DNA of 64,000 nt. It comes from Thiohalobacter thiocyanaticus. Lineage in GTDB: Bacteria; Pseudomonadota; Gammaproteobacteria; Thiohalobacterales; Thiohalobacteraceae. A model generated the notes under the pieces. That model saw only the letters and a program-made list of their open reading frames with translations, was not told the DNA's origin and searched no databases. Shown here one piece after another: positions 1,748-17,369 of the stretch. Numbering within the stretch: position 1 is the stretch's first letter; each line of letters opens with the position of its first letter. The position numbers and the translations under genes are program-made. Location: NCBI RefSeq assembly GCF_002356355.1, contig NZ_AP018052.1, forward strand, positions 2,480,001 through 2,544,000, given 5' to 3'.

Positions 1748-3952
1748 TCAGACCGCCAGCTGCAGTGGCAGCCGGTCGAAGTCCTGCCCGGTGAGTACGC
1801 TCAGGGCGTTGGCCACCGCCGGTGCGATCACCGGCGTGGCCGGCTCGCCCACACCGGTGGGCGGCTCGGTCGAGGGCACGATATGCACCTCGACCACGGG
1901 CATGCGGTCGATCCCCAGCACCTCGTAGCCGTCGAAATTGGACTGCACCACCTGCCCGTCCTCCAGCGTGATCTCGCTCATCAGGGCCGCGGCCAGGCCG
2001 AAGGCCATGCCGCCTTCCATCTGGGCACGGATATTGTCGGGATTGACCGCCACGCCGCAGTCCACGGCAATCACCACCCGCTCCACATTGATGCGTCCGT
2101 TGTCGCCGATGCTGACCTCGGCCACCTCGGCCACGTAGGAGTTGAAGGACTCGTGCACCGCCACCCCGCGTGCCCTGCCCTCCGGCAGCGGCCTACCCCA
2201 GCCGGCCTTCTGAGCGGCCAGTTCCAGCACGCCGAGGTGACGCGGATGGTCCTTGAGCAGCCCGCGGCGGTAGTCGACCGGATCGCGGCCGGCGGCGCGG
2301 GCCAGTCGGTCGATGAAGGTCTCGACGGCGAAGGCGGTGTGGGTCGAGCCTACCGAGCGCCACCACTGCACCGTGACCGGCAACTCGGTGGTGACCAGGT
2401 CCACCTCGAGATTGGGAATGGCATAGGGCAGATTGGCCGCGCCCTCCACCGAGGTGGCGTCCACCCCGTCCCTGACCATGCCGCCCTCCATGACGGTCCC
2501 GGTCATGATGGACTGGCCCACGATGCGGTGACGCCAGGCGACCGGCATGCCCTCGCCGTCCAGACCGGCCTCGAGCTCATGGTAGTAGAACGGCCGGTAG
2601 TAGCCGCCGAGCATATCGTCCTCGCGGGTCCAGACCAGTTTCACCGGGGCCTTGCCCGAGGCGGATTTCACAATATGCGCCGTCTCCACCAGGTAGTCCG
2701 AATGCGGATTGGCACGCCGGCCGAAGGAGCCGCCGGCATAGAGCATGTTGATCTTCACCTGTCCCGGCTCCAGGCCCAGTACCTGCGCCACGTTCTGCTG
2801 GTCGACGGTCTGGAACTGCTCGCCGTTCCAGATCTCGCAGCCGTCCTCGGTGAGTTGCATCACGCAGTTGAGCGGCTCCATGGCGGCGTGGGCCAGATAG
2901 GGCATGTGCATGGCCGCGGTCAGGCGGGTGGAGGCGCGCTCCAGCGCGGCGGCGGCATCGCCCTCGCTGCGCGCGACCGCCGCGGGTCCCTGCGCCCTGC
3001 CCCGGTAGTCGTCCAGGATCTCACGACTGCTCATGCGAAAGGCAGCGGATTCGTCCCACTCCACCTTGAGTGCTTCACGACCCTTGATGGCGCTCCAGGT
3101 ATTGTCGGCGAGGACGGCCACGCCGGTCGGGATCCCGACCACTTCGGTGACACCCTTCACCTGCTTCGCCGCCGCAGCGTCGTAGGCCTTGACCCTGGCC
3201 CCGAAGCGCGGCGGATGCGCCACCACCGCCACGCGCATGCCGGGCAGTTGGATATCCTGGGTATAGACGGCGCTGCCGTCGAGCTTGGCCGCGTTGTCCA
3301 GTCGCGGCAGGAAGGTCCCGATCAGAGTGAATTCTCCGGGCTCCTTGAGCAGGACCTCCTCCGGTACCGGCTGCGCGGCCGCGGCCGCGGCCAGTTCGCC
3401 GAAGCGGGCCGTGCGGCCGCTGTCGGGATGGCTGAGCTCACCCTTGCTGACCCGGATCTCACTGGCCGGCACGCCCCATTCGGCCACGGCGGCCTGCACC
3501 AGCATATGGCGCGCCGTGGCGCCGGCCTGGCGCATCTGGGTGTAGGCGTTGGCGATGGCGGTACTGCCGCCGGTGCCCTGCAGTTTGCCCCAGTTCAGAT
3601 TGTTGTAGCGCTCCGGATCGGCCGGCGCCGGCACCGGCACGATCTGCGACCAGTCGGCGTCGAGTTCCTCGGCCACCAGGGTGGCCAGCCCGGTGAAGGT
3701 GCCCTGCCCCATCTCCAGGTGCTTGATCACCACCTCGACGCGGTCGTCAGGCAGGATGCGAACGAAGGCGTTGGGCTCGAATTCGGCCTCGGGGGCGACC
3801 CGCGCCCCGGCCTGACCGGGACCGGCGGTGCCCGTATCAGCTTCGGGCTCGCGGCCGCAGCCGGGCAGGTACAGGGCCAGGGTCAGCCCGGCGCCGGTGG
3901 ACAGGCTGCGGACCAGGAACTGGCGGCGGGTCAGGCTGAAGGGTGCGTTCAT
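1748..3952 (-). CDS. Isoquinoline 1-oxidoreductase-type molybdopterin-binding subunit (IorB-like)
   Basis: This 734-residue large subunit belongs to the xanthine oxidase family of molybdenum hydroxylases, in the IorB-like branch that pairs with a small 2Fe-2S protein and lacks an FAD subunit. Family segments include [36 protein letters not shown] and the C-terminal [18 protein letters not shown], whose Glu is the expected catalytic base. The N-terminus has a twin-arginine motif (TRRQFLVRS, residues 8-16), a hydrophobic stretch and a lipobox-like LPGC near residues 29-32. This suggests Tat export, possibly with lipid anchoring. The substrate (aldehyde or N-heterocycle) cannot be told. ATG overlaps the 2Fe-2S gene's stop. 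Confidence 0.88.
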
Positions 3953-12482: not shown

Positions 12483-13037
12483 TCAGTCCGCTTCCAGGAT
12501 GCGGCGGCGGATGCGCTGCTCTTCCGCGTCGCTCAGCAGCCCTTCGTCGTGCAGTTCCTGGATTACCCGCAGCTGACGCAGGCGGCGCTGGGCGGGAGAC
12601 TCCACTGCCGCCTTCGGGGATGGCGCGGGGGCGGCGCCCGGGCGGGCCGGCGCCGCTCGGGCAGCGGGCGGTTCCAAGGCCGGCACGGCGGGGGCGACGG
12701 CGCCCGCAGACGCTCCGCAGTCCAGCTGCGCCACGATGCCCTGCTCGATATCGCTGCGCGTCACCCGCCGGCGATAATCGGTACAGCCATCCTTGCGCAG
12801 GATGATGATGCCGTAGAGGTCGACATCCTCCGGCGGGTAACTGTTGGGATAGATATCGCGCTCGGACAGGGTCAGGGGCGTGGTGCCTGCGCGGCCGGCG
12901 ATGGTGAAGACCTGGGCCCCGGCCGGTTCGGAGTCGACGCGGAAGCGCTCCACCCCGAACGCGGCCGGCGCCTGACTGCCCAGACCCAGCGCCAGCAGCG
13001 CGGCAAGCGCGCGGCGCGGCAACTCAGAAGGCCGCAT
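12483..13037 (-). CDS. Exported protein with PEGA-like and SHOCT-like segments, function unknown
   Basis: From the ATG at 13037 this is a 184-residue protein. It has a signal peptide (ALAALLALGLGSQAPAAFG), a PEGA-like beta domain (RVDSEPAGAQVFTIAGRAGT), a proline/alanine-rich linker, and a C-terminal helical hairpin (LRQLRVIQELHDEGLLSDAE) resembling SHOCT oligomerisation motifs. The start overlaps the 3' end of the haem-c/porin gene by 14 bases, so translation is probably coupled. Longer in-frame starts exist inside that gene but would precede the signal peptide. Function is not known. Confidence 0.75.
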   Translation of the reverse strand: MRPSELPRRALAALLALGLGSQAPAAFGVERFRVDSEPAGAQVFTIAGRAGTTPLTLSERDIYPNSYPPEDVDLYGIIILRKDGCTDYRRRVTRSDIEQGIVAQLDCGASAGAVAPAVPALEPPAARAAPARPGAAPAPSPKAAVESPAQRRLRQLRVIQELHDEGLLSDAEEQRIRRRILEAD

Positions 13038-14310
13038 CGAATCCGAACAGGAAGTAGTGCTCGCGGCTGAGATGGCCGGTCCAGTACTGGCCGGTCTTGT
13101 CTTCCTTGTCCTGCAGATCCACATTGAGCTCGGCGATGCCCTTGACGTTGCGCATGAAATAGTAGGACGCGGTCAGCGTCAGGCTGTTGATGTCGATGCC
13201 TTCGTAGATGGTGTCGGTGTCATCCAGGTCGTTGGCATCGGCGTAGTTGTACAGCAGGGAATACGCCCAGCGGTCGTTGGGGATGTAGTCAACGCCGGCG
13301 AAACCGCCGGACCATTCATAGTCCCGATCCGGGCCGCCGTCGATGAAGCGGTCCCAGCGATTGTGCAGGAACTGGGCGTACCAGTGAATGTCCGGGCCGA
13401 TGCTGCCCGAGGCATCCAGCCCCCAGACCTCCTTGTCGCGGTTGTGCAGCCCCTCGTCCAGCCCGGCCGGGCCGGTGATGCTGCGCTGCTTGCCGGTCAG
13501 GCCGAACAGGCCGACATTGACCGGACCGATATCGGTCCCGAGTCGGCCGAAGGCGGTCTTGCTGTTGTCGTTGTCGAACATGTTATCGGGCCGGTTCAGG
13601 CCGGGGCTGTTGAGATCGAAGCTGCTGCTCACCCCGTTGCCGTTGACCAGGCCGAGCGAGGCCTCGACCGGGCCGAGGTCGCGGCCGAACAGCACGCCGC
13701 GATCATAGGTGATGCCGGCCAGGCGGTAGGCCATGTAGTCCTGGAACGGCAGGCGCACCTCGCGCGGAAACATCAGATCCGAAATCTGAAACTGACCCAG
13801 CATCAGGCTGGTACCCGTGCCGAAAATATCGTCGTGCTGGAACCAGGCGTCCTCGACCACCACCTCGCCGTTACCGCCCTTCTCGGCGAAGATGGCATAG
13901 AAGTAATAGGTGATGTGGTCGCTGAGCGGTGCGCTGGACAGCAGCTTGATCAGATAGGGCGATTGGAAATCGGTGGTGGCCGAACGGCTGCTGCCGTCCA
14001 GCGGGTTGATGTTATCGGCCTGGCGCGCCTGCATGTAGGCCTGGGCGCGCACCGCCAGCGGCAGTTCCTTCGGCAGGGCCAGGCGCTCGTCGCCGCCCGA
14101 CATCGTTCCGTCCTTCCAGTTGGGCAGGCGCATGTTGTTGGCCGCGAAGTGCTCCCCGAACTGGTTCAGCCTGGGGAAGGCCGAATGGCAGGCGGCGCAG
14201 CTCATATCGTACTTGCGGGCGAAGGCCGGCATGGCATCGGCGTCGGCGAACACGCCGGCGAGGAGGAAGATGCCGATGGCGGCAATGAGGCGGTGGAATG
14301 AAACAGTCAT
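13024..14310 (-). CDS. Outer-membrane-type protein with an N-terminal single haem-c motif
   Basis: This 428-residue protein has a signal peptide ending near ADA (residue 26), then MPAFARKYDMSCAACHSAFP containing one CxxCH haem-c site. The remaining 370 residues show alternating aromatic/polar strands and Asp/Asn-rich turns, like a beta-barrel porin, and end in FGFDAAF with a terminal Phe. A C-terminal Phe is typical of outer-membrane proteins. I infer a haem-bearing outer-membrane pore, perhaps in electron transfer, but no such role is established from the sequence. A small exported protein overlaps its 3' end. Confidence 0.7.
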   Translation of the reverse strand: MTVSFHRLIAAIGIFLLAGVFADADAMPAFARKYDMSCAACHSAFPRLNQFGEHFAANNMRLPNWKDGTMSGGDERLALPKELPLAVRAQAYMQARQADNINPLDGSSRSATTDFQSPYLIKLLSSAPLSDHITYYFYAIFAEKGGNGEVVVEDAWFQHDDIFGTGTSLMLGQFQISDLMFPREVRLPFQDYMAYRLAGITYDRGVLFGRDLGPVEASLGLVNGNGVSSSFDLNSPGLNRPDNMFDNDNSKTAFGRLGTDIGPVNVGLFGLTGKQRSITGPAGLDEGLHNRDKEVWGLDASGSIGPDIHWYAQFLHNRWDRFIDGGPDRDYEWSGGFAGVDYIPNDRWAYSLLYNYADANDLDDTDTIYEGIDINSLTLTASYYFMRNVKGIAELNVDLQDKEDKTGQYWTGHLSREHYFLFGFDAAF

Positions 14311-15153: not shown

Positions 15154-15328
15154 AAGGCCTCCCAATGCCGTCTTCTGCCTTCAAGTATAGGCCAGTCTGC
15201 AAGCGGGGCCGGATACCGGAACCGCGGCGCCCGCGCAGCCGCTCCCGCCCACGGCCGCGCCGGACTACCGGATTGATTTCAATTGTTTTACATTGACCGG
15301 GCCTGGGGCCACCACGGGAGACAACGCC

Positions 15329-15583
15329 ATGCAGGACCCTGCCCGCGCCTACTGGAAGGCCAACCTCCGCCTGGTCGGCCTGCTGCTGATCATCTGGTTT
15401 CTGGTCTCCTACGTGTTCGGCATCCTGCTGGTGGAGCCGCTGAACAGCATCCGCCTGGGCGGCGTCAAGCTGGGCTTCTGGTTCGCCCAGCAGGGCTCCA
15501 TCTACACCTTCCTGGTCCTGATCTTCGTCTACGCCATCGGGATGAACCGCCTGGACCGCCGCTTCGGCGTACACGAGGACTGA
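15329..15583 (+). CDS. DUF4212 small subunit of sodium/solute symporter
   Basis: This 84-residue membrane protein from the ATG at 15329 (GGGAGAC ribosome-binding site) has two transmembrane helices, at about residues 15-35 (LRLVGLLLIIWFLVSYVFGI) and 55-75 (GSIYTFLVLIFVYAIGMNRL). It belongs to DUF4212, always found immediately upstream of VC_2705-type symporters. An upstream in-frame ATG at 15293 would add 12 non-conserved residues. It is likely an accessory subunit of the next gene's product, seven bases downstream. Confidence 0.9.
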   Translation: MQDPARAYWKANLRLVGLLLIIWFLVSYVFGILLVEPLNSIRLGGVKLGFWFAQQGSIYTFLVLIFVYAIGMNRLDRRFGVHED

Positions 15584-15590
15584 AGTCGCC

Positions 15591-17369
15591 ATGGAACTGC
15601 AGACCCTGATCTACCTGGTGGTGGGCGCCACCTTCCTGCTCTACATCGGCATCGCCATCTGGGCCCGGGCGGGCAGCACCGGTGAGTTCTACGTCGCCGG
15701 CAAGGGCGTGCACCCGGTCGCCAACGGCATGGCCACGGCCGCGGACTGGATGTCGGCGGCCTCCTTCATCTCCATGGCCGGGCTGATCGCCTTCAGCGGC
15801 TACGACGCCTCGGTCTATCTGATGGGCTGGACCGGCGGCTATGTGCTGCTGGCCATGCTGCTCGCCCCCTACCTGCGCAAGTTCGGCAAGTTCACCGTGC
15901 CCGAGTTCATCGGCGAGCGCTACTATTCCCAGACCGCGCGGCTGGTGGCGGTGGTGTGCCTGATCGCGGCCTCCATCACCTATGTCATCGGCCAGATGAA
16001 GGGCGTGGGCGTGGCCTTCGGCCGGTTCCTGGAAGTGGAGTTCGAGACCGGGGTGCTGGTCGGCATGGGCATCGTCTTCTTCTATGCCGTGCTCGGCGGC
16101 ATGAAGGGCATCACCTACACCCAGATCGCCCAGTACTGCGTGCTGATCTTCGCCTACACCGTGCCGGCCGTGTTCATCTCGCTGCAGCTCACCGGCACCC
16201 CCCTCCCGCAGCTGGGCCTGGGCAGCGAACTGGCCGGCAACGGCGCCTATATGCTGGACAAGCTGGATCGGATCATCACCGACCTGGGCTTTGCCGCCTA
16301 CACCGAGCAGAAGGGGTCGACCCTGAATCTCAGTCTGCTGACCCTGTCGCTGATGATCGGCACCGCCGGCCTGCCGCACGTGATCATCCGTTTCTTCACC
16401 GTGCCGAAGGTGCGCGACGCGCGCTACTCGGCCGGCTGGGCGCTGCTGTTCATCGCCATCCTCTACACCACCGCGCCGGCGGTCGGCTCCATGGCCCGGC
16501 TCAACCTGACCGAGACGGTCCAGACCGGGCCGGTGGGCGAGCCCGGGGCCAACCTGCTGTATGCGGAGCGACCGCAGTGGTTCCGCACCTGGGAGACCAC
16601 CGGGCTGCTGGCGTTCCAGGACAAGAACAACGACGGCCGCATCCAGTACTACAACGAAGCCGATCCCGACTTCGCCGAACGGGCGCGGCAGTGGGGCTGG
16701 GAGGGCAACGAACTGGTCACGGTCGACCGCGACATCATGGTGCTGGCCAACCCGGAAATCGCCGGGCTGCCCAACTGGGTCATCGCCCTGGTCGCCGCCG
16801 GCGGCCTGGCCGCGGCACTGTCCACCGCGGCGGGGCTGCTGCTGGCCATCTCCTCGGCCATCTCGCATGACCTGCTCAAGGGCGTACTCATGCCCGGCAT
16901 CTCGGAGAAGCGCGAGTTGCTGGCCGGGCGTCTGGCCATGTTCGGCGCCATCGTCCTGGCCGGTTACCTGGGCATGAACCCGCCCGGCTTCGCCGCCGAG
17001 GTGGTGGCGCTGGCCTTCGGCCTGGCCGCCTCCTCCATCTTTCCGGCGCTGATGCTGGGCATCTTCCACAAGCGCATGAACCGCGCCGGCGCCGTGGCCG
17101 GCATGCTGGCCGGACTGGGCGCGACCCTGGTCTACATCTTCGTCTACAAGGGCTGGCTGTTCATCCCGGGCACCAACAACCTGCCCAACACGGCCGAACA
17201 CTGGCTGCTGGGGATACAGCCCGAATCCTTCGGTGCGGTCGGCGCCCTGATCAATTTCGCCGTAGCCCTGGTGGTGGCGCGGGTCACCGCCGCCCCGCCC
17301 GAACACATCCAGCACCTGGTCGAGGACATCCGGGTGCCGCGCGCGGCCATACTCACCGCGCGGCGCTGA
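15591..17369 (+). CDS. VC_2705-type sodium:solute symporter (ActP/SSS family)
   Basis: This 592-residue protein of the solute:sodium symporter family has about 13 transmembrane segments. Family motifs include GEFYVAGKGVHPVANGMATAAD at the N-terminus, RKFGKFTVPEFIGERYYS, and GLAAALSTAAGLLLAISSAI in the core. An insertion near residues 345-380 contains DKNNDGRIQY, which resembles an EF-hand loop and might sense Ca2+. Relatives transport acetate or other short organic acids, but the substrate here is not shown. It forms an operon with the small subunit, the nucleotidyltransferase gene and probably the exonuclease. Confidence 0.92.
   Translation: MELQTLIYLVVGATFLLYIGIAIWARAGSTGEFYVAGKGVHPVANGMATAADWMSAASFISMAGLIAFSGYDASVYLMGWTGGYVLLAMLLAPYLRKFGKFTVPEFIGERYYSQTARLVAVVCLIAASITYVIGQMKGVGVAFGRFLEVEFETGVLVGMGIVFFYAVLGGMKGITYTQIAQYCVLIFAYTVPAVFISLQLTGTPLPQLGLGSELAGNGAYMLDKLDRIITDLGFAAYTEQKGSTLNLSLLTLSLMIGTAGLPHVIIRFFTVPKVRDARYSAGWALLFIAILYTTAPAVGSMARLNLTETVQTGPVGEPGANLLYAERPQWFRTWETTGLLAFQDKNNDGRIQYYNEADPDFAERARQWGWEGNELVTVDRDIMVLANPEIAGLPNWVIALVAAGGLAAALSTAAGLLLAISSAISHDLLKGVLMPGISEKRELLAGRLAMFGAIVLAGYLGMNPPGFAAEVVALAFGLAASSIFPALMLGIFHKRMNRAGAVAGMLAGLGATLVYIFVYKGWLFIPGTNNLPNTAEHWLLGIQPESFGAVGALINFAVALVVARVTAAPPEHIQHLVEDIRVPRAAILTARR

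Follow-up and report, generated by a model that had tools for sequence, protein, structure and literature searches.

Gene organisation at the locus

We analysed a window of 64,000 nucleotides from the genome of Thiohalobacter thiocyanaticus (assembly GCF_002356355.1, contig NZ_AP018052.1, positions 2,480,001 to 2,544,000), which carries a gene for a putative fused cytochrome-porin, followed by a gene for a small exported protein, here termed the companion. A sequence-only reading of this DNA had described a haem-c motif joined to a predicted outer-membrane barrel at positions 13024-14310 of the window. Overall, this observation was confirmed, with the addition of the strand (minus), which had not been given. 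The features of the locus, in window coordinates and with the evidence on which they rest, are:

13024..14310 (stop included), minus strand: Cyc2-like fused monohaem cytochrome-porin, 428 amino acids (sequence, orthologues, Cyc2 signature, tree, model, porin matches)
14233..14310, minus strand: signal-like segment, residues 1-26, with putative cleavage between ADA and M at 26/27 (sequence, judged by eye)
14062..14232, minus strand: mature N-terminal haem segment, residues 27-83, with MPAFARKY, CAACH, PRL and NQFG (sequence, orthologues, signature of PMC8406198)
14185..14199, minus strand: putative CAACH haem-c attachment site, residues 38-42 (sequence; CxxCH in 16 of 16 orthologues)
13027..14061, minus strand: predicted porin-like beta-barrel, residues 84-428, with 15 model strands, probably 16, a Phe end and the widely shared residues R256, G267, D299 and N388 (model and alignments)
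12483..13037, minus strand: small exported PEGA/SHOCT-like companion, 184 amino acids (sequence, Pfam scans, gene neighbourhoods)
13024..13037, minus strand: 14-base overlap of the cytochrome-porin stop and the companion start (exact; offset kept in 6 of the 8 genomes that have the companion next)

The single CxxCH of the cytochrome-porin lies, as previously noted, in a short mature N-terminal segment, whose start we place by eye at about residue 27; residues 26-52 read AMPAFARKYDMSCAACHSAFPRLNQFG. Both cysteines of this motif, C38 and C41, are the only ones in the protein, and the C-terminal residue is the reported phenylalanine, Phe428. The barrel-like region was earlier put at about 370 residues; its barrel character is supported by the structural model and by porin matches, but its length is nearer to 345 residues. 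Profile scans of the cytochrome-porin yielded no Pfam or NCBIfam family above cut-off. The Pfam barrel family PF13505 matched below its cut-off (E 0.015; 15.9 bits versus 28.7) and was found at E <= 0.1 in 5 of 16 orthologues. Sequence searches of the PDB gave no convincing match, one search returning none and another a best E of 0.39.

Similarity to Cyc2

Cyc2 is the fused cytochrome-porin of iron-oxidising bacteria, and the Mariprofundus protein oxidises iron (PMC8406198). The passages of that paper which define the family describe a CXXCH motif, preceded by AXPXFAR[Q/K][T/Y], which is called unique to Cyc2, and followed after four residues by PXL; the protein has a minimum of 365 amino acids and a porin of 16 predicted strands with OprO and OprP as structural relatives (PMC8406198). 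The T. thiocyanaticus protein possesses a signal peptide, as judged by eye, and one CXXCH. Its AMPAFARKY at residues 26-34 corresponds to the upstream motif and is separated from C38 by three residues, as in the sequences that we take for zetaproteobacterial (see below), while P46-R47-L48 after H42 corresponds to PXL. Its 428 residues exceed the minimum length, and at the level of the model it forms an OprO/OprP-like barrel of 15 strands, close to the expected number of about 16.

Eight of 95 genomes, among them the own genome, contain whole-length orthologues with at least 60% identity, and relatives with 58-97% identity were found at 13 loci of a genome collection (two of them from one metagenome-assembled genome (MAG); some genomes are shared with the 95-genome search). 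The nearest relatives in this collection are from a MAG (97%) and from Thiohalobacter thiocyanaticus HRh1 (91%), and the gene is also carried by a Thiogranum MAG and a Gallionellaceae MAG. In an alignment of 16 orthologues (with the 97% near-copy L002/L023 and the incomplete loci L033 and L035 excluded), PxFARxY, CxxCH with both cysteines, and PxL are unchanged in all rows; the invariant residues are P28, F30, A31, R32, Y34, C38, C41, H42, P46, L48, N49, F51 and G52. Residue 33, a lysine here, is K, R or Q; departures from the published motif are R in place of [Q/K] in L004 and L006 and S in place of the first A in L030. Viral contigs contained 23 stretches matching the pattern, none of them a relative, and plasmids gave three records with N-terminal matches covering just 10-23%.

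The protein is thus a member of the known Cyc2-like kind, in a poorly characterised branch of it. An unprecedented fusion was rejected, because the published Cyc2 signature is present and the joining of cytochrome and porin is therefore not new in kind. It shares with Cyc2 of Mariprofundus ferrooxydans PV-1 (Cluster 1) and Acidithiobacillus ferrooxidans (Cluster 2) the signal peptide, the single N-terminal CxxCH with FAR before and PxL after it, and, at the level of the model, the OprO/OprP-like barrel of about 16 strands. In contrast to the FARQT of these proteins, the group around the window protein has FAR[K/R/Q]Y, and some of its members have a companion gene; this comparison was made through the signature rather than with the named sequences. 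MtrAB, PioAB and MtoAB likewise combine a barrel with haem to form an outer-membrane electron conduit, but consist of a 26-strand barrel and a separate decahaem cytochrome (PMC8406198). A conduit of this type was rejected for the present protein, a single chain with one haem site and 15-16 strands.

Phylogenetic placement

When 398 genomes of the phylum were searched, 79 gave matches, 65 of them from a single family (f119). The f119 sequences are of two kinds: 13 have FARQTG, mostly with CHF or CHH following, and 23, joined by one from family f139, have FARKYG...CHTMFP. Some genomes, e.g. G098 and G147, carry both. As Zetaproteobacteria are described as possessing Cyc2 of Clusters 1 and 3 (McAllister 2020, PMC7029218), we infer that f119 represents the Zetaproteobacteria and that its FARQT and FARKY kinds correspond to Clusters 1 and 3, respectively.

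For a quick tree, seven loci (copies, the near-copy and the two incomplete ones) and open-ended proteins were set aside; of 77 proteins collected, six second copies were dropped and the window protein was added, giving 72 rows. The 16 members of the window's group form one clade with a support of 100. A branch with support 97 (93 when the haem segment was omitted) has this clade on one side, along with the FARKY kind, one long-branched row and a two-member group, and the FARQT kinds on the other. The branches are long, and the program cautions that long branches may have been joined falsely; the root has no meaning beyond the drawing. Since the rows were chosen by AR...CxxCH, the conservation of this pattern among them arises by construction, which is not the case for residues of the barrel.

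The placement fits Cyc2 Cluster 3, which comprises the second Cyc2 of Zetaproteobacteria and the Leptospirillum Cyt572. The likeness consists in the grouping with the FARKY family of presumed Zetaproteobacteria; on the other hand, long branches part the window's group from these sequences, through which the comparison with Cluster 3 was made. The authors who defined the Cyc2 family call the function of Cluster 3 the most uncertain (PMC8406198).

The FARKY family itself (24 sequences, L050-L076 except L063, L065 and L073; 23 from f119 and one from f139) has methionine at 14 alignment columns in all 24 sequences, many of which are close copies, and at nine of these columns no other group has any methionine. 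This suggests a methionine-rich barrel in that family.

Predicted barrel structure

Structure prediction with AlphaFold2 of the mature form (signal segment removed, 14 alignment rows) gave a modest model with a predicted local distance difference test (pLDDT) score of 60.3 and a predicted template modelling (pTM) score of 0.68; with the signal segment retained, the pLDDT was 47.4. The sequence-only reading had proposed such a prediction, and its outcome is a barrel with porin matches rather than a soluble fold. The 15 strands lie between mature residues 94 and 398, and an additional first strand near mature residues 58-70 would, in our reading of the model, bring the number to 16. OmpF has 16 strands. 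A Foldseek search returned 109 PDB chains at E <= 0.001, and the best 50 of these 109 are outer-membrane barrels, mostly general porins. Alignment with VIA-align gave Z values of 17-18 for OmpF/OmpC over about 285 residues, 17.4 for OprO (4rjw) and 17.1 for OprP (2o4v).

Within the barrel, R256, G267, D299 and N388 are common to 96-97% of the 72 rows, with row L019 among those departing at some of these sites. Realignment of the barrels alone recovered all four residues by two of three methods, while the third recovered G267 and N388 and failed to recover R256 and D299. Among three control porins, two of which are Porin_O_P members, equivalents of D299 and N388 were found in none in either of two alignments; in one of these alignments, an arginine was aligned in one control and the glycine in all three.

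The companion gene

The 14-base overlap of the companion ORF with the cytochrome-porin gene is exact, as noted before. Translational coupling, which had been deduced from it, is less well founded: the offset is kept in six of the eight genomes with the companion next to the gene (in the other two, the companion starts 2 and 27 bases past the stop), but the C-terminal Asp-Ala codons (gATGc) account for it in part, and the overlap is therefore no proof of coupling. At locus L008, the gene downstream of the orthologue is a different one, read as ubiE-like, yet it too overlaps by 14 bases, which points to these codons as the source of the overlap.

The companion was also described as PEGA/SHOCT-like. 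The window protein itself remains below both cut-offs (E about 0.1), but among four distant relatives scanned, PEGA exceeded its cut-off in all four and SHOCT in three. It does not behave as a fixed partner, being directly downstream at 8 of 17 orthologue loci (one locus per genome) and not downstream at the remaining 9. Moreover, two genomes, G045 and G077, the only two of nine that were searched in this way, gave no genome-wide match at E <= 0.001, and an obligate partnership was accordingly rejected. Within 11 genomes of the family, the companion occurs in 6 of 6 with the orthologue and in 0 of 5 without it (Fisher p 0.002, uncorrected for kinship, with G007 and G010, which have weak or other-type matches only, counted as lacking the orthologue, and with three of the 11 genomes less than 90% complete).

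The 95 genomes contain five further, more distant companions: three downstream of a porin gene, one beside genes read as molybdenum-cofactor genes and one at a contig end. Two of the three porins match Porin_O_P over cut-off and the third matches barrel models weakly; the two of them that could be read to their start have no CxxCH. This small sample thus suggests an association of the companion with porins and not with haem. The distant cases (L042, L045 and L046, with the wider stretches L099 and L100; genomes G055, G072 and G053) resemble the window in the order of a barrel gene followed by a PEGA/SHOCT gene and in the domain layout of the companion. They differ in that their companions show, by eye, lipoprotein-like starts, which the window protein lacks, and in the absence of CxxCH from two of their three porins. 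In G055 and G053, a small exported protein read as DsrE-like precedes the porin, and divergent genes are read as sigma- and anti-sigma-like. A literature search found no paper linking Cyc2 with a PEGA domain.

Proposed function

The sequence-only reading had also suggested that haem and pore together move electrons across the outer membrane. The architecture is supported by orthologues, model, porin matches and signature, and the idea is reasonable and already published; movement across the membrane, however, exceeds the published Cyc2 model, in which the haem lies at the periplasmic side and has to be reached by the donor through the pore (PMC8406198). We consider it probable, with some reserve, that the protein is a Cyc2-type cytochrome-porin of the Cluster 3-fitting branch that serves as a one-haem electron inlet with a periplasmic companion. 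After export, a c-type haem would be attached at C38-C41-H42, probably by System II machinery of the ResB type. The genome, searched as a single contig of 3,233,441 bases, encodes ResB (E 6.7e-142); CcmH gave no match in it, though four control genomes did, and the absence of a TIGR03509 match is uninformative, as no control genome had one either. No second cytochrome-porin was matched in this genome at E <= 1. The C-terminal 345 residues would form a porin-like outer-membrane barrel of about 16 strands, with the short haem segment plugging its periplasmic mouth. A small reduced donor able to enter the pore, most simply Fe2+, would give one electron to the haem, from which it might pass through a periplasmic c-type carrier to a terminal oxidase; strain HRh1 is described as having a cbb3 oxidase (PMC6504805). 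In 'Ca. Tenderia electrophaga', the expression of a Cyc2 homologue is higher at one electrode potential than at a second one, and a role beyond dissolved iron has accordingly been proposed for proteins of this sort (PMC5371394). The companion may act as a periplasmic accessory of the barrel in assembly, anchoring or docking, rather than as an electron carrier. At locus L009 (about 2746-3498), an ORF with two CxxCH motifs lies directly downstream of a related cytochrome-porin and is a possible periplasmic electron acceptor.

Several observations weigh against this inlet model. Besides H42, no His or Met is conserved across the 72 relatives, so that no distal haem ligand can be identified from conservation; H159, H413, M180 and M386 are unchanged (16 of 16) within the window's own group only. 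The pLDDT is about 35 in the haem segment and below 50 throughout mature residues 1-71 and 86-129; with such low values for the haem segment and residues 86-129, the model does not place the haem in the barrel. Barrel-only comparison by hhalign gave no significant similarity to the presumed zetaproteobacterial FARQT (Cyc2-type) set (0.35%, E 0.17); similarity to the FARKY set was weak (3.5%, E 0.012), in the same range as for the three control porins (1.4%, E 0.037); a clear link was obtained to the two-member group B alone (94%, E 1.6e-7). A scan of five neighbouring ORFs revealed no further cytochrome. The word iron is absent from the text of the HRh1 genome paper (PMC6504805), passages of the FOKN1 paper do not treat iron oxidation, and a literature search for Thiohalobacter and Cyc2, with no wider search on iron oxidation by Thiohalobacter, found no paper connecting them.

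The donor could be other than iron: in sulfur oxidisers, the same architecture might accept electrons from sulfide, polysulfide, thiosulfate or a similar sulfur compound entering the pore, or, via a mediator, from solids. The nearest named isolate with the gene, T. thiocyanaticus, belongs to a genus that oxidises sulfur and thiocyanate (PMC6504805), and the Thiogranum MAG carries the gene as well. According to passages of PMC12442345, many organisms with Cyc2 homologues seem also to oxidise sulfur, and iron oxidation by Cyc2 was not shown in lucinid symbionts. The uncertainty stated for Cluster 3 leaves room for such a donor. Against it stand the orthologue of the Gallionellaceae MAG and the five neighbouring ORFs scanned, among which no sulfur gene was recognised. 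A literature search found no paper joining Cyc2 Cluster 3, sulfur oxidation and a porin. We regard a non-iron donor as rather unlikely. Unlikely too, and quite speculative, is the more specific proposal that the clade is a specialised cytochrome-porin of sulfur- or thiocyanate-oxidising Gammaproteobacteria with a non-iron surface donor, and that its PEGA/SHOCT companion, which ordinary porin operons have too, links the barrel to the cell wall or to a partner in the periplasm.

A structural or regulatory haem, i.e. a haem-plugged porin whose redox state gates solute uptake with no net electron transfer, would agree with the lack of a distal ligand conserved across relatives, with the similarity of the model to solute porins and with the occurrence of some companion relatives beside porins without CxxCH. 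This is improbable in view of the measured iron-oxidising activity and suitable potential of M. ferrooxydans Cyc2 and of the haem segment being the most conserved region of the published family (PMC8406198). Still less credible is an ordinary porin with an unloaded CxxCH, the motif being due to chance or forming a metal or disulfide site. A weak zinc-binding Pfam match touches the CxxCH region (E 0.15; E <= 0.1 in 4 of 16 orthologues), and haem occupancy is itself presumed from the motif; yet all 16 orthologues keep CxxCH and the core residues around it, the Cyc2 signature (PMC8406198) is matched and ResB for c-haem attachment is encoded in the genome.

Genomes are screened for iron oxidisers with Cyc2 as a marker, and Cluster 3 is the part of the family with the most uncertain function. 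If the clade indeed uses a non-iron donor, Cyc2-type proteins would be one-haem electron inlets of a general kind, and it would be misleading to take them as markers of iron oxidation. The inlet model and its alternatives can be approached in this clade, whose close orthologues include that of the isolate T. thiocyanaticus HRh1, a tractable place to ask for iron versus other donors; the companion offers a second handle, because its relatives occur with porins lacking a haem site. The value of the protein is greater as a test case for Cluster 3 function than as a discovery.

Genomic context

According to Pfam scans, a BON-domain protein is encoded upstream of the cytochrome-porin on the same strand. 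Beyond the companion follow genes for a dienelactone-hydrolase-family protein and a hemerythrin-domain protein, and then a large ORF read as glycogen phosphorylase. On the plus strand, at window positions 15293-17369, a gene for a DUF4212 protein precedes a large ORF read as a sodium/solute symporter, an ordinary-looking pair.
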